DNA of 64,000 nucleotides from Brevibacterium sp. CS2 (GTDB lineage: Bacteria; Actinomycetota; Actinomycetes; Actinomycetales; Brevibacteriaceae). The translations under genes were made by a program, and so were the position numbers. Below the pieces are notes generated by a model. It had not been told where the DNA came from. It was given only the letters and a program-made list of their open reading frames with translations, and did no database searches. The stretch lies in the NCBI RefSeq assembly GCF_005280295.1, contig NZ_CP040020.1, positions 248,001 to 312,000 on the forward strand, read 5' to 3'. Within the stretch, counting starts at the first letter, position 1. Every line of letters starts with the position of its first letter. Below are positions 51,417 through 58,358 of the stretch, piece by piece.

Positions 51417-51526
51417 ATCGACCACCCTACTGGGTGCCGCGGACACGGCCCACCGAACGCTGATCCGCGCCCGGCCGCCCGCCGCGAATGCTTGAGGCGG
51501 CCCGCCGCCTCGGGCAGGATGGTCCC

Positions 51527-52219
51527 ATGACGACACCCCCCGCCCGCTCCCCCGAACCTCCCGAGAACACGCCGGCCGACCCGGCCCGGACCATGCGGAT
51601 CGGCCACGCCGAGCGCGACGAGGTCATCGAGGTGCTGCGGGAGGCCGCGGGCGAAGGCCGCCTCACCACCGAGGAGCTCACCGAGCGGATCGAGCTCACC
51701 GCGGCCGCGAAGTTCTACGTCGACCTCGACGCGATCGTCGCCGACCTGCCGGTGCCTCCGCCCTCGGATCGGATCCGCCCGACCCAGCGTCCGCCGCGGG
51801 CCGCACCCGGGCCTTCCGACGCCCCCGGTCACCACCCCTTCGACCCGCTCGTCCTGCGCGCCTCCTGGGACAACGCCAAGCGCAAGGGCCGCTGGACTCC
51901 CCCGCCCTTCATCCGGCTCGAAGCCGTCGGGGCGACCGCAGAGGTGAATTTCCTCGAGGCGACCACCGACCTGCCCGAGATCGACGTCGAGGTCTCCGGC
52001 GGCATGGGCAACGCCGTGGTCGTCGTACCCGAGGACTGGGGCGTCAACATCGATCGCCTGAGCTCCAGCTGGGGCACCGTGCGCTCGAAGGTCGCCGCCG
52101 ACCCGCAGCCGGGCAAGCCCCTCGTCCGCGTGCACGGCTCGATGGGCATGGGCGCCTTCACCGCCCGCCACGCGGGCTACTTCGAACGCAAACGGCTGGA
52201 GAGCAGCGGGAATGGATGA
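51527..52219 (+). CDS. DUF1707 (SHOCT-like) domain protein
   Basis: The 230-residue protein has an N-terminal DUF1707 domain at about residues 20-75 (MRIGHAERDEVIEVLREAAG, LTTEELTERIE) and a C-terminal beta-rich domain like the LiaF/YvqF cell-wall response module (AEVNFLEATTDLPEIDVEVS, then VVVVPEDWGVNIDRLSSSWG). No membrane helix is present. It may sense or bind at the envelope; the function is unproven. ATG 51527 is preferred to the upstream ATG. The last eight bases overlap the next gene. Confidence 0.82.
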   Translation: MTTPPARSPEPPENTPADPARTMRIGHAERDEVIEVLREAAGEGRLTTEELTERIELTAAAKFYVDLDAIVADLPVPPPSDRIRPTQRPPRAAPGPSDAPGHHPFDPLVLRASWDNAKRKGRWTPPPFIRLEAVGATAEVNFLEATTDLPEIDVEVSGGMGNAVVVVPEDWGVNIDRLSSSWGTVRSKVAADPQPGKPLVRVHGSMGMGAFTARHAGYFERKRLESSGNG

Positions 52220-52466
52220 GCCCCAGATCCTGGTCGTCCTCATCGTCATCGCGTTCTTCGCAGTGGCGCTGTTCGGCGGGGGCTACCTCATCTTCCGGGT
52301 GATGAACCGGCCGGACTCCTACATCGGCTCGCACCTTCCCGGTGACCGGGCGGAGGAGACGACGCCCCACTTCGTCGACGACGACACCACGGACGACACC
52401 CCCGACGGGTCCCCGCAGGGTCCCGAGGAGCCGCACGAGGACACCGACCGCGGTCCGGGCTACTGA
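52212..52466 (+). CDS. Small single-helix membrane protein
   Basis: The 84-residue protein has one N-terminal helix (ILVVLIVIAFFAVALFGGGY) and a polar acidic tail (DDDTTDDTPDG). It overlaps the DUF1707 gene by eight bases, so the two are likely co-translated and may act together at the membrane. No family was recognised. Confidence 0.72.
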   Translation: MDEPQILVVLIVIAFFAVALFGGGYLIFRVMNRPDSYIGSHLPGDRAEETTPHFVDDDTTDDTPDGSPQGPEEPHEDTDRGPGY

Positions 52467-52602
52467 GCGCCGCCACCGGTTCCGGCGGTCCCCGAATCCG
52501 ACAGGCCCCCACATCCGATGAGGACCCCCGCCCGGCGTGCCCGCATCCGGCAGGATCCGCGTCCGGGCGTGTCCCGTGCCGTCGCGGAGCCGAGGCGCGG
52601 GC

Positions 52603-53226
52603 TCAGTCCGCCGCGGACTCGCTGACCTCGACCCGCGCATGCTCGTCGCGGCCGAACAGCCACAGCAGGAGCTCCACCGGCGTGCCGCGCAGCGTGGTCG
52701 AGGCCGCGCCGGTGCGTCCGGCCGAGGTCATCCCGAACCCGGGCGCCTCCACCACGAGGTGGGTGCCGGACTTGAGGCTCGCCGGCAGGATCATCGCCTT
52801 GACGAGCGCGAAGCAGCGGGAGTGGAGCTCCCAGGGCAGGTCGCGCGGCTCCCAACCGGGCTGGGCGCGGCGGACGTCCTCGTGGTGGACGAGGAACTCC
52901 GCAGTATTCATGAGCCGGTCCACCGGACCCCAGCTCGCCGGGTTCCAGACCGGAGCACCCTCGGCCACACGGCCGACGAGCTGTTCCCAGGGCAGTGCGG
53001 TGAGTTCCGCCTCGGCGCCGGCGGCCCGCTCCTCCAGGAGCTGCGACTTCCCTGCGAGCGCGGGGAACGCATTGCCGACGAGGGCGTCCGGCCGACGGTC
53101 GCGGATCACGATGTGCACGGCGAGGTCCCGGGTCGTCCACCCCTCGCACAGGGTCGGGGCATCGGGGCCGATGGTGCGGAGCAGGGCGGCGAGGGAGCGG
53201 CGCTCGGAGCGGGCGAAGTTCGTCAT
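52603..53226 (-). CDS. TIGR03085-family DinB-like protein
   Basis: The 207-residue protein begins TNFARSERRSLAALL and has PDAPTLCEGWTTRDLAVHIV with RDRRPDALVG, signatures of the actinobacterial TIGR03085 family related to mycothiol-dependent maleylpyruvate isomerase/DinB folds. The His in LAVHIV and the HH in EFLVHHEDVRR are likely metal ligands. It may be a mycothiol-linked enzyme, but the reaction is unknown. A run of GCGGGCT heptamers lies just upstream of the coding region, in 53255-53300. Confidence 0.85.
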   Translation of the reverse strand: MTNFARSERRSLAALLRTIGPDAPTLCEGWTTRDLAVHIVIRDRRPDALVGNAFPALAGKSQLLEERAAGAEAELTALPWEQLVGRVAEGAPVWNPASWGPVDRLMNTAEFLVHHEDVRRAQPGWEPRDLPWELHSRCFALVKAMILPASLKSGTHLVVEAPGFGMTSAGRTGAASTTLRGTPVELLLWLFGRDEHARVEVSESAAD

Positions 53227-53299
53227 CCGTCCAGTCTGCCCTGCCCGTGGGCGCCTGTCGACGCGGCGGGCTTGCGGGCTGCGGGCTGCGGGCTTGCGA

Positions 53300-54196
53300 T
53301 CAGCCTGCGCCCTCCAGCGCGCCCTCCCAGGCCGCGAGGAAGTCCGCGACGCGGCTGACCGAGCGCAGCACCGGGAGCTCGTCGGCGCGCGTGGGGCCGT
53401 CGGTGACGACGACGACCGGCATCCCGGCCTTGACGGCCGCGCGCACGAACCGCAGCCCGGAGTGCACCGCGAGCGAGGTGCCGAGCACCGCCAGGCCCGC
53501 GGCCTCCTCGACGAGGGCGAAGGCCGCGTCGACCCGGGGCCGGGGCACCGATTCGCCGAAGTACACGACATCGGGCTTGAGGAGGCCGCCGCAGCGCGGG
53601 CAGTCGTAGACCCGGAAGCCCGCCGTGTGCTCGAGCTCGACGTCGCCGTCTGGCGCGGTCTCGAGCGTCTCCGGGGACACCGCGAGCTCGGCGAGGAAGT
53701 CGGGGTTGAGCGCGTCGAGCTCCTCCTGCACGCGGTCGCGGCCGAGGGTGAGCCCGCAGTCGAGGCACACCACTCGGTCGAGGCGCCCGTGGAGATCGAT
53801 GACCGGTTCCGACCCGGCCGCCTGGTGGAGGCCGTCGACGTTCTGCGTGATGATGCCCAGCGGTGCGATCCGGGCCAGTGCCCGGTGCCCGGCGTTCGGA
53901 TGGACCGCGGTCATCCGCTTCCAGCCGATCCACCCGCGCGCCCAGTACCGCGCGCGCTGCGCGGGGTGGGAGAGGAAGGTCTGCACGGTCATCGGGGTGC
54001 GCGCCGGGGAACCGGGCCCGCGGTAGTCGGGGATGCCGGAGTCGGTGCTGATCCCGGCACCGGTGAGAACCGCCCAGCGTGCGGGCGGGATCGGCGACAT
54101 GGCGGCGACGATCTGCCCGTCCGTGTGCTCCGGTTCGGGGCGCACACGCCCGCGCAGCGGGTCCCGGACGACTCCCACTGCACCCTCCTCGCACAT
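53300..54196 (-). CDS. NAD-dependent protein deacetylase (sirtuin)
   Basis: This 298-residue SIR2-family enzyme removes acyl groups from lysines using NAD+. It contains TGAGISTDSGIPDYRG (NAD site), TQNVDGLHQAAG, the catalytic His in DLHGRLDRV and a zinc finger of four Cys (CLDC and CPRC). GTSLAVHSGL closes the nucleotide site. Met33 (MSPIPPARW) is an alternative start, which would better match family length. It is divergent from the aminopropyltransferase operon (174-bp gap). Acs regulation by deacetylation is a known sirtuin role; an acs gene lies 20 kb away. Confidence 0.92.
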   Translation of the reverse strand: MCEEGAVGVVRDPLRGRVRPEPEHTDGQIVAAMSPIPPARWAVLTGAGISTDSGIPDYRGPGSPARTPMTVQTFLSHPAQRARYWARGWIGWKRMTAVHPNAGHRALARIAPLGIITQNVDGLHQAAGSEPVIDLHGRLDRVVCLDCGLTLGRDRVQEELDALNPDFLAELAVSPETLETAPDGDVELEHTAGFRVYDCPRCGGLLKPDVVYFGESVPRPRVDAAFALVEEAAGLAVLGTSLAVHSGLRFVRAAVKAGMPVVVVTDGPTRADELPVLRSVSRVADFLAAWEGALEGAG

Positions 54197-54370: not shown

Positions 54371-54988
54371 ATGGGAGACTTCCTCTCCACCCTTGTCACC
54401 GCCGTCATCGCCATCGGGATCGTGCTGGTGATCATCCTCGTCGTCAAGCGGATGCGCGCCTCCGATCGCCCGGTGCACGTCGATGCCGGCCCGCGCGCCC
54501 ACGACCCGTTCGCGCCCGGGCAGGACACCGGCGGGGACCCGCTGAAGATCCACGCCGGCGACATCCTTGAGTTCGGCTCGGAGAAGCACTTCGTGCGCGG
54601 CACCCTGCGGATCGCGGAGGGCGGCTACACCTGGGCGGAGCACTTCTTCCAGGCCGACGGCAGCGCCCAGCGGCAGTGGCTCACCGTGGAGGAGGACCCC
54701 GACCTCCAGCTCTCGATCTGGAAGGACCGCCCGGACCTCGACATCGAGCCGCGCTCCGAGCAGATCGACCTCGAGGGCACCTCGTACACGCTCGTCGAGC
54801 ACGGCACCGCGACCTACCGCTCCGAGGGCACCACCGGGCTGCGGCCGCAGGGCGCGCTCGACTACGTCGACTACGAGGCCGGCGACGGCACCCACCTCTC
54901 CTTCGAGCGGTTCGACCACGGCCGCTGGGAGGTCAGCACCGGACGACCCGTGACCCCCGGCTCCTTCACGATCTACCCGGGCAGCTGA
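54371..54988 (+). CDS. DUF4178 protein with an N-terminal membrane helix
   Basis: The 205-residue protein starts with one hydrophobic helix (VTAVIAIGIVLVIILVVKR) followed by a soluble beta-rich DUF4178 domain (about 55-205) including EFGSEKHFVRGTLRIAEGGY, WLTVEEDPDLQLSIWK and YRSEGTTGL. Function is unknown; DUF4178 recurs with DUF350 and aminopropyltransferases. TAGTCT (54326-54331) is a possible -10 box for the operon. Confidence 0.85.
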   Translation: MGDFLSTLVTAVIAIGIVLVIILVVKRMRASDRPVHVDAGPRAHDPFAPGQDTGGDPLKIHAGDILEFGSEKHFVRGTLRIAEGGYTWAEHFFQADGSAQRQWLTVEEDPDLQLSIWKDRPDLDIEPRSEQIDLEGTSYTLVEHGTATYRSEGTTGLRPQGALDYVDYEAGDGTHLSFERFDHGRWEVSTGRPVTPGSFTIYPGS

Positions 54989-54989
54989 G

Positions 54990-55640
54990 ATGCACAGCCT
55001 CGACGTCCCCTTCGCCGACACCGCGGCGGCCGACCTCACCTTCTCCCTCGCCCAGGGACGGCTCCCGTCCGTCCACAGCACCGTCGCCCGCCTCACCGCG
55101 CGCTCCGGCCACGCCCTGCGGGTCGAGCTCGCCGTGCTCGGCTGCTCCCACCAGGTGATCGTCACCGGCGGCGGTGCCGAGCTCATCGAGACGCTCGCCT
55201 GCCTCCCCACCGCGGACCCGACGCTGCCGGAGAGCCGCCTCACCGCTGGGATCGCCGGGACCGGGGTCCATGACTTCCGCTCCCGTGTCGACCATGTGGG
55301 GACCGATCGGTTCCTCGCGGCGGTGGACGACATCGTCGCGGGGGCACAGCGGGCCGCGCACCACGCCGTCGTCGACTTCCCCGGGCACCCCGGCGCCGTC
55401 ACCGCCCTCGCACTGGGTCCCTCCGCGGCCGCCGGGACCGAGGCAGGAGCCGGGGCCGAGGCCGGAGCCGACGGCACGCAGCGGGTGGGCGATGCGCTGT
55501 CCTGGCAGACCTGGCACTGCTACCCGCAGCACGGTGAGATCGTGCACACCCGCACCGCCCTCACCGGCCTCGAGCACGCCTTCCGACCGACCGCCGGCGC
55601 CCACCCGTGCCCGGCTCGACCGAGCGAGGTCTCGATATGA
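54990..55640 (+). CDS. DUF2617 protein
   Basis: The 216-residue protein begins one base after the DUF4178 stop. It has DLTFSLAQGRLPSVHSTVA, HQVIVTGGGAELIETLACLP and a C-terminal SWQTWHCYPQHGEIVHT stretch characteristic of DUF2617. An Ala/Gly/Glu-rich insert occurs near 145-165. No catalytic residues can be assigned. It overlaps the next gene by ATGA. Confidence 0.82.
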   Translation: MHSLDVPFADTAAADLTFSLAQGRLPSVHSTVARLTARSGHALRVELAVLGCSHQVIVTGGGAELIETLACLPTADPTLPESRLTAGIAGTGVHDFRSRVDHVGTDRFLAAVDDIVAGAQRAAHHAVVDFPGHPGAVTALALGPSAAAGTEAGAGAEAGADGTQRVGDALSWQTWHCYPQHGEIVHTRTALTGLEHAFRPTAGAHPCPARPSEVSI

Positions 55641-56218
55641 GCTTCCCGCCCCCGAACCCGCAGTCCGGGCCCGGCGACCGCATCCCGCTCCCCGGTTCCG
55701 GCCGGCCCGGCCCAGGACAGTCCGACCGTGGCCAGTCGGGCCCACGGCAGTCCGGACCCGGCCGCCCCCGGGTGACGATGAGCGGCCGGGGCTTCGACTT
55801 CGATGCGGAGAACCGCCGCGGCGGCTCCGGCGGCGGCCACCAGGCATGGACACCGGGCGAGAACGAGTCGGCCAAGCGCGGCGGCAAGGGCTGCGGCTGC
55901 ATCATCGGCCTGCTCGTCGTCCTCTTTCTCCTGCTCTCGCTCATCGGCTCGTGCTCGAGCTCGGCGACGTCGGGTTCGGCGCAGTGCGGCGACTACGACC
56001 TCGTCGACGGTGAGTACGTCAGCGCCCCGAACCGCGGCGACTACGACAAGCAGGGCGAGAACTACACCTACGTCGGGTGCGACTCCTCCTCCCGCTCCGG
56101 CGGAGGCGGCGGATTCTGGTTCTTCCCGTTCATCTTCGGCGGCGGCTCCTCCGGCTCCGACTCGAACTACGGCGGCGGCTCCGGCTACCGCGGCGGCGGC
56201 TCGGGCACCGGCAAATGA
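55637..56218 (+). CDS. DUF4247-like membrane or lipoprotein-like protein
   Basis: The 193-residue protein has a Pro/Gly-rich cytoplasmic N-terminus, a membrane helix after basic residues (GCGCIIGLLVVLFLLLSLIG), then SCSSSATSGSAQCGDYDLVD with two cysteines and a short conserved-looking domain (DYDKQGENYTYVGCDSS). The end is Gly/Ser/Tyr-rich. The position between DUF2617 and DUF350 is that of DUF4247 in related operons; the domain match itself is only suggestive. ATG 55637 overlaps the DUF2617 stop. Confidence 0.6.
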   Translation: MSFPPPNPQSGPGDRIPLPGSGRPGPGQSDRGQSGPRQSGPGRPRVTMSGRGFDFDAENRRGGSGGGHQAWTPGENESAKRGGKGCGCIIGLLVVLFLLLSLIGSCSSSATSGSAQCGDYDLVDGEYVSAPNRGDYDKQGENYTYVGCDSSSRSGGGGGFWFFPFIFGGGSSGSDSNYGGGSGYRGGGSGTGK

Positions 56219-56331
56219 CCGGCGCTCCCGCACCCGCCGGAATCGGTGAGCACATATCCGCAGCGACCTCTGCCGCGCACCCGGCACCCGACGACCACCT
56301 CAGCTGACATCCACCGTCCGAAAGGCCCCTC

Positions 56332-56757
56332 ATGATCGTCCCCCTCCTCATCGAATCCGGAGTCGTCCTGGCGTACGCGGTGGCCGGCCTCCTCCTCATG
56401 CTCGTCGGCTACGGCGTCGTCGACCTCATCACCCCGGGCAAGCTCCACGAGCTGCTGTGGACGGAGAAGTCCCGCAACGCCTCGATCCTCGTCGCCTCGA
56501 ACCTGCTCGGCGTGGCGATCATCGTCGCGGTCGCGATCCGTGCGAGCGCCGGCGACCTCGTCTGGGGTCTCGTCTCGACGATCGTCTACGGCGTCATCGG
56601 GATCATCATCATGGCGGCGAGCTTCCTCATCGTCGACGCCCTGACCCCGGGCCGGCTGGGCGAGATCGTCCACTCCGAGACCATCCACCCCGCGGTGTGG
56701 GTCAACGCCTCGGCGCACTTCGGCATCGCCCTCATCATGGCCTCCGCCCTCCTGTGA
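56332..56757 (+). CDS. DUF350 membrane protein
   Basis: The 141-residue protein has four hydrophobic helices in two similar halves, each with a VDLITPGKL / VDALTPGRL motif and an acidic pair following, the internal repeat of DUF350 (YjfL-like). Function is unknown. AAAGGCCCC precedes the start. A 113-bp gap follows the previous gene but the order is conserved in comparable operons. Confidence 0.9.
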   Translation: MIVPLLIESGVVLAYAVAGLLLMLVGYGVVDLITPGKLHELLWTEKSRNASILVASNLLGVAIIVAVAIRASAGDLVWGLVSTIVYGVIGIIIMAASFLIVDALTPGRLGEIVHSETIHPAVWVNASAHFGIALIMASALL

Positions 56758-56777
56758 TCGGCTGACCCGCGACCTCC

Positions 56778-58358
56778 GTGAGCACCGCCGCCGACCCGGA
56801 GTCCATGCGCCTGCCGGTGCGCCCCGGGCCGGCGCGATTCCTCGTCCTCTTCGCCGTCTTCCTGTGCGCCTCGTGCGGCATGGTCTACGAGCTCGCACTC
56901 GTGGCGCTCGGCTCGTTCCTGCTCGGCGACACCATCGTGCAGGCCTCGATCGTGCTGTCGGTCATGGTCTTCGCGATGGGCGTCGGATCGATCCTCACCA
57001 AGCGGCTGACCCATCTCGCCGCGGTGTCGTTCGCCCTCATCGAGGCCGCGCTCGGGATCATCGGCGGCCTGTCCGTCCTCTCCCTCTACCTCGCGTTCGC
57101 CTACCTCGACCTCTACACCGCGGCGATGATCGTCATCGCCTTCGTCATCGGCGTCCTCATCGGGGCGGAGATCCCGCTCCTCATGGAGCTCATCCAGCGC
57201 ATCCGCGCCCAGCGCGCCTCGGCCGCGGTCGCCGACCTCTTCGCGGTGGACTACGTGGGCGGGCTCATCGGCGGCCTCGCCTTCCCGTTCCTCCTGCTGC
57301 CGCTGCTCGGGCTGCCCCGCGGCGTGCTCGCCGTCGGGATCGTCAACGCCGTCACCGGCATCCTCATCGTCGTGTGGCTGTTCCGGCACGAGCTCTCCCG
57401 CCGCGTGCGCACCGGGCTGACCCTGCTCCTCGTCCTCATCGTCGGGGTGCTCACCGCCGCCTGGGTCTACACGGATGCGATCGAGGTGACCTCGCGGCAG
57501 AAGATCTACCGGGATCCGATCGTCACCGCCGAGCGCAGCGCCTACCAGGACATCGTCGTCACCCGCCATCCGCGCACCGGCGACACCCGGCTGTTCCTCA
57601 ACGGCGACCTGCAGTTCGCCTCGAACGACGAGCACCGCTATCACGAGTCGCTCGTGCACCCGGTGCTCGACGGCCCGCGCACCCGGGTGCTCGTGCTCGG
57701 CGGCGGCGACGGCATGGCGCTCCGGGAGGTGCTCAGGTACCCCGACGTCGAGGAGGTCACGCTCGTCGACCTCGACCCCGCCGTCGTCGAGCTCGCCCGG
57801 ACGGACGAGGCGTTCACCGAGTTCAACGGGGAGTCGTTCGCCGACCGCCGGGTCGACTACGTGCCCGCCGACGCCTTCACGTGGCTGCGGGAGGAGAACG
57901 ACCGGGCCTACGACGTCGTCATCGCCGACCTCCCCGACCCGGACGACGTGTCGACCTCGAAGCTCTACACCATCGAGTTCTACGGCCTCGTCGAACGCGC
58001 GATGAACCCCGGGGCGCGGCTCGTCGTGCAGGCCGGGTCCCCGTTCTTCGCGCCCGAGGCGTACTGGGGCATCGGGGAGAGCATCGCGCAGGCCGGATTC
58101 GCCACCACCCCCTATCACGTCGATGTCCCGAGCTTCGGCGACTGGGGTTACTTCCTCGCCGCGACCGGCGAGGCGCCGGAGGTCGAGGTGCCCGTCGATG
58201 CGCCGGACGACCTGCGCTTCCTCACCCCCGAGGTGGCCCGCGCCTCCCTCGTGTTCCCGCCGGACCGCGACCGCGACTCCGTCGGCGCGGTGGAGCCGTC
58301 CTCCCTGCTCCACCCGCGGGTGATCGATCAGCAGCGCGGCGCCTGGGTGGGGTACTGA
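56778..58358 (+). CDS. Membrane-anchored polyamine aminopropyltransferase-like protein
   Basis: The 526-residue protein has about seven N-terminal membrane helices (1-230). A spermidine synthase-like domain (about 240-480) follows, with NGDLQFASNDEHRYHESLVH, the SAM-binding VLGGGDGMALREVL, VTLVDLDPAVVELA and the substrate-side VIADLPDPDD. Substrate Tyr/Asp positions look intact. Soluble SpeE transfers an aminopropyl group from decarboxylated SAM; no speD is seen here. The membrane form, fused to helices and grouped with DUF350, DUF4178 and DUF2617, may modify a lipid, wall or protein amine rather than putrescine. GTG 56778. Confidence 0.88.
   Translation: MSTAADPESMRLPVRPGPARFLVLFAVFLCASCGMVYELALVALGSFLLGDTIVQASIVLSVMVFAMGVGSILTKRLTHLAAVSFALIEAALGIIGGLSVLSLYLAFAYLDLYTAAMIVIAFVIGVLIGAEIPLLMELIQRIRAQRASAAVADLFAVDYVGGLIGGLAFPFLLLPLLGLPRGVLAVGIVNAVTGILIVVWLFRHELSRRVRTGLTLLLVLIVGVLTAAWVYTDAIEVTSRQKIYRDPIVTAERSAYQDIVVTRHPRTGDTRLFLNGDLQFASNDEHRYHESLVHPVLDGPRTRVLVLGGGDGMALREVLRYPDVEEVTLVDLDPAVVELARTDEAFTEFNGESFADRRVDYVPADAFTWLREENDRAYDVVIADLPDPDDVSTSKLYTIEFYGLVERAMNPGARLVVQAGSPFFAPEAYWGIGESIAQAGFATTPYHVDVPSFGDWGYFLAATGEAPEVEVPVDAPDDLRFLTPEVARASLVFPPDRDRDSVGAVEPSSLLHPRVIDQQRGAWVGY

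Follow-up and report, generated by a model that had tools for sequence, protein, structure and literature searches.

DUF2617 as a candidate AdoMet decarboxylase for a membrane SpeE protein in an operon of Brevibacterium sp. CS2

Spermidine-synthase genes occur in many actinobacteria, and in haloarchaea such as Haloferax, without a known source of decarboxylated S-adenosylmethionine (AdoMet), a situation that has been described for Haloferax (PMC5178350; here and below, the literature is cited from extracts of the papers named). Where, then, does the donor come from? The question is raised by a five-gene operon in a stretch of 64,000 nucleotides (hereafter the window; contig NZ_CP040020.1, positions 248,001 to 312,000) of Brevibacterium sp. 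CS2, whose 3.24-Mb genome is a single contig. According to the open reading frame list of the window, the five frames span positions 54371-58358 and encode, in order, a DUF4178 protein, a DUF2617 protein, a protein in the DUF4247 slot, a DUF350 membrane protein, and a spermidine-synthase-type protein (SpeE) with seven transmembrane (7TM) segments. The genome contains one Spermine_synth match in total and no match to PF02675, the family of the AdoMet decarboxylase SpeD (the eukaryotic-type AdoMet decarboxylase family PF01536 was not searched). A preliminary description of this DNA had likewise seen no AdoMet decarboxylase; although that statement stands for PF02675, it is likely misleading, as DUF2617 behaves like the replacement of SpeD. 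We consider it likely that the operon joins a predicted 7TM protein, itself likely an aminopropyltransferase, to DUF2617 as a strongly diverged AdoMet decarboxylase that supplies its donor, because DUF2617 and SpeD exclude each other across genomes, because they are swapped at the locus in bacteria and archaea, and because DUF2617 has conserved residues of catalytic type and a moderate profile match to SpeD.

The distributions of DUF2617, SpeD, and SpeE were compared in an evenly drawn set of 148 genomes from the window's class and in 301 genomes of the family containing Nocardia. SpeE matches were counted as strong at ≥70 bits in the class set and at ≥92 bits in the 301-genome family, cut-offs that were fixed after seeing the score gaps. 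In the class set, DUF2617, strong SpeE, and SpeD were found in 27, 30, and 6 genomes, respectively. All 27 DUF2617 genomes had a strong SpeE, and the three strong-SpeE genomes without DUF2617 (G050, G264, and G289) were all SpeD-positive; their operons contain DUF4178, DUF4247, DUF350, and SpeE, with DUF2617 absent. G050 encodes a SpeD that shares 99% identity with a SpeD of Nocardia carnea. In the 301-genome family, SpeD was present in 37 genomes and DUF2617 in 96, and the two co-occurred in none. Among the matches listed, 112 of the 301 genomes had a strong SpeE, together with DUF2617 in 94, with SpeD in 17, and with neither in only one (G533). Fisher and hypergeometric values calculated for the exclusion disregard kinship and were not treated as proof. 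The locus of the latter (L107, 5620-6699) holds a remnant of a 7TM SpeE gene with an in-frame stop and no operon partner found, that is, a decaying copy. Conversely, two DUF2617 genomes of this family lacked a strong SpeE among the matches listed: in G372, the SpeE gene is divided between two reading frames and hence was not counted as strong, and in G573 DUF2617 is an orphan. This orphan (L108, 3883-4389) lies between ruvC-like and yebC-like genes, both named by eye, with no adjoining SpeE.

When the operons of six SpeD genomes were examined (L086, L087, L112, L113, and L116, which are 5 of the 17 above, and L088 of G264 from another family), DUF350 and SpeE were found in 6/6, DUF4178 in 4/6, and DUF2617 in none; in L112 and L116 the operon was reduced to DUF350 and SpeE. 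The same exclusion was observed within a single genus, g235, where G341 has DUF2617 and a 7TM SpeE, and G365 has a fused SpeD-aminopropyltransferase with neither DUF2617 nor a 7TM SpeE. A fusion of this kind (406 aa), followed by a gene resembling a pyridoxal phosphate (PLP) decarboxylase (named by eye), was also seen in G289 (L089, 5758-8087). Among 14 control genomes, SpeE matches were found in 11 and SpeD in 8; of those with SpeE but no SpeD, Corynebacterium glutamicum and Haloferax volcanii have DUF2617, and Lactococcus is without it. In a phylum set of 198 genomes, G121 and G162 have DUF2617 and SpeE but no SpeD, and G144 gave one DUF2617 match under the cut-off. Bacterial DUF2617 queries gave no match in viral contigs and plasmids.

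DUF2617 and SpeE also stay together at the locus. In 30/30 actinobacterial DUF2617 loci outside Brevibacterium (L025-L050 and L095-L098), SpeE lies 3′ of DUF2617 on the same strand, although in L046 it is split over two frames. In that locus (genome G309), DUF2617 has Tyr in place of Cys71, and both genes seemingly decay together. The preliminary description had regarded scattering of the genes among relatives as speaking against a common system, and scattering was partly found, DUF350 being present in 20 and DUF4178 in 16 of the 30 loci; the same five genes occur in the same order in 7/7 Brevibacterium loci retrieved. Ten loci of genus g6 (L031 among them) carry nothing of the operon but the DUF2617-SpeE pair. 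Because this pair is kept in all 30 loci whereas DUF350 and DUF4178 vary, we regard DUF2617 and SpeE as the constant part of the operon.

The swap of DUF2617 for SpeD at the locus was then followed outside the actinobacteria. A Novosphingobium SpeE query retrieved 13 plasmid records of this SpeE type, of which six loci were examined. SpeD was found within the 6-kb flanks of SpeE in five of them, namely those of Gemmatirosa, Burkholderia (on the opposite strand), Novosphingobium, Ensifer, and Alteromonas (directly 3′ of SpeE), and within this distance no SpeD was found in the Tritonibacter locus; DUF2617 was present in 0/6. In haloarchaea, the 12 records with DUF2617 were the same 12 records that had a 7TM SpeE, and DUF2617 adjoined SpeE in 8/8 loci examined; in one of these (L144), SpeE has no annotation and was matched in several separate fragments. 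The haloarchaeal plasmid pairs (L142-L149) share further genes, one of about 230 aa before SpeE and, in most, one of about 317 aa after DUF2617, and those scanned gave no Pfam match above the cut-off. On a Halobaculum rubrum plasmid (L141, 5080-6858), an annotated S-adenosylmethionine decarboxylase stands next to a shorter SpeE, in contrast to the report that sequenced halophiles lack an AdoMet decarboxylase homologue (PMC5178350). In a tree of 57 SpeE proteins, in which the window's protein clusters with Brevibacterium and some deep branches are long, the DUF2617 label changes four times, and at least three of these changes are forced by starred branches.

DUF2617 residues were counted in 167 proteins, 8 of them archaeal (Table 1). 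Ser53-His54 lines up with the SH of SpeD when the N-terminal halves are aligned, an alignment that by itself is not significant, and Cys71 follows Ser53 by 18 residues, the corresponding spacing being 20 in a Nocardia-type SpeD sequence. Class 1 SpeD (PF02675) and DUF2617 share the motifs SH...C and F.P.GVTxLA...HTYPExG, as well as the catalytic-type Ser, Thr/Ser, His, and Cys. Like DUF2617, class 1 SpeD occurs near membrane SpeE, in loci that have no DUF2617. Compared with it, however, DUF2617 is compact (about 165-216 aa), has the motif pieces divided over two halves, and has mostly lost the Glu that precedes the Ser. In its two-half arrangement it resembles the eukaryotic class 2 AdoMet decarboxylase (human and potato), which is likewise built of two half domains, the pyruvoyl Ser lying in the N half and a Ser/Thr and a His in the C half; the human residues are Ser68, Ser229, and His243 (PMC3975893). 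The compact model's VIA list includes the class 2 enzyme. When DUF2617 and SpeD profiles were compared by hhalign with archaeal rows included, probabilities of 85-90 were obtained, which were matched by 0/150 shuffles. A Pfam search of the DUF2617 protein gave no SpeD match, and PDB sequence searches with DUF2617 profiles gave no credible match.

Several observations weigh against this reading of DUF2617. The profile match depends on the archaeal rows; without them, hhalign gave a probability of only 33, reached by 2-4 of 150 shuffles. Position 52, before the putative pyruvoyl Ser, is Glu in only 3/167 proteins, and position 180, which corresponds to the ribose-binding Glu after HTxP, is Glu in 11/167 (8/8 archaeal). 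The loss of these Glu counts against plain membership of the AdoMet decarboxylase superfamily, but not against the function. Archaeal SpeE proteins retain GGGD in 7/7 but the DxxDP of the catalytic part in 0/7. Two g6 genomes (G193 and G023) hold both DUF2617 and SpeD. The SpeD homologue of G193 (L092) reads SASHLSIHTWPEFSLANVDLLAYG, with SASH instead of ESH and the catalytic Cys missing, and that of G023 (L084) has the same stretch; both are possibly inactive or act on another substrate. Finally, judged by bits alone, SpeE matches of ≥70 bits occur with neither DUF2617 nor SpeD in G192, G148, G169, and the incomplete genome G064 of the phylum set; those of the first three are more distant 7TM SpeE-like proteins. 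Distant proteins of 58-90 bits were found in eight genomes of that set (G192, G148, G060, G020, G048, G169, G185, and G075), of which G060, G020, and G048 also have SpeD in the genome; among the others, those under 70 bits likewise have neither SpeD nor DUF2617. They were set aside as another subfamily rather than counted as exceptions, because they score only 2e-21 to 2e-30 with the SpeE profile used here and have no DUF350, DUF4178, or DUF2617 adjoining. Whole operon-type actinobacterial SpeE genes score 2e-186 or better with the same profile; the cut is one of degree, as haloarchaeal SpeE (1e-37 to 1e-49) falls between the two.

The preliminary description had read the last gene as spermidine-synthase motifs fused to seven helices, and this was confirmed. 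The window's SpeE consists of seven hydrophobic segments followed by a C-terminal spermidine-synthase domain; it matches NCBIfam NF002956 with E=1.7e-195 and 650 bits (cut-off 472) and PF01564 with 119 bits, and is 83% identical to SpeE of Brevibacterium daeguense. It shares the catalytic domain and aminopropyltransferase motifs with soluble spermidine synthase, but adds the N-terminal 7TM domain and has different partners. In alignments to 3anx, 7xif, and 1uir, it holds the GGGDG and DLPDP motifs, with the acidic residue of GxG(D/E)G and both catalytic Asp present. Among 52 SpeE rows, which include single pieces of the interrupted genes of L046 and L107 and leave out archaeal SpeE, the acidic residue was found in 52/52 and the two catalytic Asp in 50/52 and 49/52. 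In L031 (genome G171), Glu replaces a conserved Tyr and Ala replaces both catalytic Asp of SpeE, and the adjoining DUF2617 keeps its residues.

A membrane SpeE might instead take a 3-amino-3-carboxypropyl or methyl group from AdoMet itself, with DUF2617 as an accessory rather than the maker of the donor. This would suit a genome that has no PF02675 gene, the missing DxxDP of 7/7 haloarchaeal SpeE, and the report that putrescine-binding residues are not conserved in haloarchaeal 7TM SpeE (PMC5178350). There is also a precedent, since the fungal 7TM N-terminal histidine methyltransferase NHMT, which is annotated as a spermidine synthase and likewise combines a 7TM domain with a spermidine-synthase-like domain, is a methyltransferase (PMC10349129). 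However, NHMT has Ile at the acidic position of GxG(D/E)G (PMC10349129), and we set operon SpeE apart from it because the acidic residue is present in all 52 rows, as it is in the 7 archaeal proteins. Moreover, SpeD lies near the same kind of SpeE in five of the six non-actinobacterial loci, and the SpeD genomes of the 301-genome family are without DUF2617. On balance, use of AdoMet itself appears unlikely.

Slightly less likely again is that DUF2617 is a pyruvoyl decarboxylase related to AdoMet decarboxylase but acting on ornithine, arginine, or another substrate, so that it would make the acceptor amine and not the donor. Ornithine and arginine decarboxylases that evolved from SpeD homologues are widespread (PMC10407285), and the ribose-binding Glu of DUF2617 is mostly lost. 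The PLP decarboxylases of the PF02784 family in the window genome are LysA and a LysA-like protein under the lysA cut-off, with no clear ornithine or arginine decarboxylase of this kind (other decarboxylase families were not searched). The LysA-like gene lies near 1555505 (L152, 1360-2661). With such a substrate, however, SpeE of the SpeD-less genomes would be left without a known donor, and there would be no evident reason for the loss of DUF2617 from SpeD-positive genomes, an argument that is weakened for G289, where the PLP decarboxylase-like gene beside SpeD could supply the amine. That the exclusion is an accident of lineage, with DUF2617 a binding or assembly subunit of a SpeE complex and of an unrelated PsbP/Mog1-like fold, is highly improbable, given that loci of Pseudomonadota and Gemmatimonadota, set against those of haloarchaea, show the same swap again, that at least three label changes are forced in the SpeE tree, and that the Ser, His, and Cys of catalytic type hardly vary between archaea and actinobacteria.

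If DUF2617 is an AdoMet decarboxylase, its chain would be cut autocatalytically before Ser53, aided by Thr138 and His176, and Ser53 would become a pyruvoyl group. This group would form a Schiff base with AdoMet, the carboxyl group would be lost, and Cys71 would reprotonate the decarboxylated product. Decarboxylated AdoMet would then be handed to the SpeE domain, with the Asp of GGGDG and the two Asp of DLPDP, which would transfer the aminopropyl group to an acceptor amine that the 7TM part keeps at or within the membrane. Accessory membrane partners may be provided by DUF4178, DUF350, and the DUF4247-slot protein, which are missing from many lineages. We favour a membrane-held acceptor over free putrescine because of the 7TM part, the membrane partners, and the absence of detectable spermidine in Haloferax, which has related enzymes (PMC5178350). 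Plain spermidine synthesis by a soluble-type pathway was rejected as the sole account, as the genome lacks a PF02675 match and SpeE carries a fused 7TM domain. With the balance tipped only slightly in its favour, we further propose that DUF2617 represents a third AdoMet decarboxylase architecture, namely a compact pyruvoyl enzyme of two halves that serves exclusively a membrane aminopropyltransferase, the target of the latter being an envelope component instead of free putrescine. On this proposal, the catalytic residues of DUF2617 would be distributed over both halves, as they are in the eukaryotic enzyme, and DUF2617 would be spread over actinobacteria and haloarchaea as the missing decarboxylase of these lineages. 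It would also be a candidate for kinship with the pre-eukaryotic enzyme of two domains; present-day prokaryotes are said to have no fusion of two bona fide SpeD (PMC10407285).

The features of the operon are listed in Table 1. Four of the family labels given in the preliminary description (DUF4178, DUF2617, DUF350, and Spermine_synth) were recovered by Pfam; the third gene had no match in the Pfam scan, and its DUF4247-like label rests on its slot, its transmembrane segment, and a C-terminal RGGGSGxGK motif common to PF14042 proteins of three other loci. For this gene the ATG start at 55637 was taken, and a longer GTG frame from 55607 also exists. The single direction and the count of four membrane proteins proved correct, hydropathy giving 1, 0, 1, at least 3, and 7 segments for genes 1 to 5, respectively. 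Of the overlaps that had been described, only one was found, of 4 bases between genes 2 and 3; the remaining junctions are gaps of 1, 113, and 20 bases. In the window 5′ of the operon (51488-54196) lie a DUF1707 protein gene on the plus strand and a Sir2-family gene on the minus strand.

Table 1. Genes of the operon and proposed functional residues of DUF2617 (window positions; TM, transmembrane).
Feature	Position	Strand	Basis
DUF4178 protein, 205 aa, one N-terminal TM segment	54371..54988	+	Pfam PF13785 E=3.3e-37; hydropathy
DUF2617 protein, 216 aa, no TM segment; proposed divergent AdoMet decarboxylase	54990..55640	+	Pfam PF10936 E=3.9e-37
DUF4247-slot protein, 193 aa, one TM segment, C-terminal RGGGSGTGK	55637..56218	+	Alignment to PF14042 proteins of L086-L088
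DUF350 membrane protein, 141 aa	56332..56757	+	Pfam PF03994 E=1.3e-23
7TM polyamine aminopropyltransferase SpeE (predicted), PRK03612 type, 526 aa, GTG start	56778..58358	+	NF002956; Spermine_synth 1.9e-34
Ser53-His54 codons, proposed self-cleavage site and pyruvoyl serine	55146..55151	+	Invariant in 167/167 DUF2617 proteins
Cys71 codon, proposed proton-donor cysteine	55200..55202	+	Cys in 165/167; 1 gap, 1 Tyr (L046)
Thr138 codon, proposed counterpart of processing residue Ser229/Ser55	55401..55403	+	166/167, 1 gap; aligns with GVT of SpeD
His176 codon, proposed counterpart of processing residue His243	55515..55517	+	166/167, 1 gap; aligns with HTYPE of SpeD

We take the M. tuberculosis DUF2617 gene to be Rv2598, and the accessions CCP45395.1 and CCP45394.1 to be proteins of the same species. 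M. tuberculosis has been listed among organisms without an identifiable AdoMet decarboxylase (PMC1282579), and its spermidine synthase gene is Rv2601 (PMC11841054). The operon type itself is already known from the phage shock protein (PSP)-associated operons of Ravi 2024 (PMC11237479), in which PspA is linked with DUF350, DUF4178, and a spermine-synthase protein of the 7TM type; a variant that includes DUF2617 and DUF4247, for which the two accessions above are cited, is described as lacking the dyad. Unlike the PspA-linked operons, the window's five genes include no PspA, and neither a PspA nor a CesT/Tir partner was found among them or the Pfam-scanned neighbours (the rest of the genome was not searched for PspA). 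The envelope-modification module suggested in the preliminary description is partly borne out, in that a membrane aminopropyltransferase-type gene kept with DUF350, DUF4178, and DUF4247 fits these PSP-related operons. Ravi 2024 describes DUF2617 as a predicted beta-sandwich enzyme, and the extracts of that paper contain neither a proposal that it replaces AdoMet decarboxylase nor a mention of mutual exclusion (PMC11237479). Within the extracts of the literature searched, DUF2617 is otherwise named only in a Streptomyces synteny paper and an elephant serum proteomics paper. As far as this search extends, DUF2617 as the missing AdoMet decarboxylase is not in print, and the new element is the predicted role of the second gene.

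If this role is correct, a domain of unknown function would gain a precise reaction and the residues that carry it out, and many spermidine-synthase annotations would gain a partner. A prokaryotic two-half AdoMet decarboxylase would become available for comparison with the eukaryotic one, and an unrecognised modification of the membrane or envelope would become accessible. It would also explain how actinobacteria and haloarchaea that have no known enzyme for this step could make the donor molecule.

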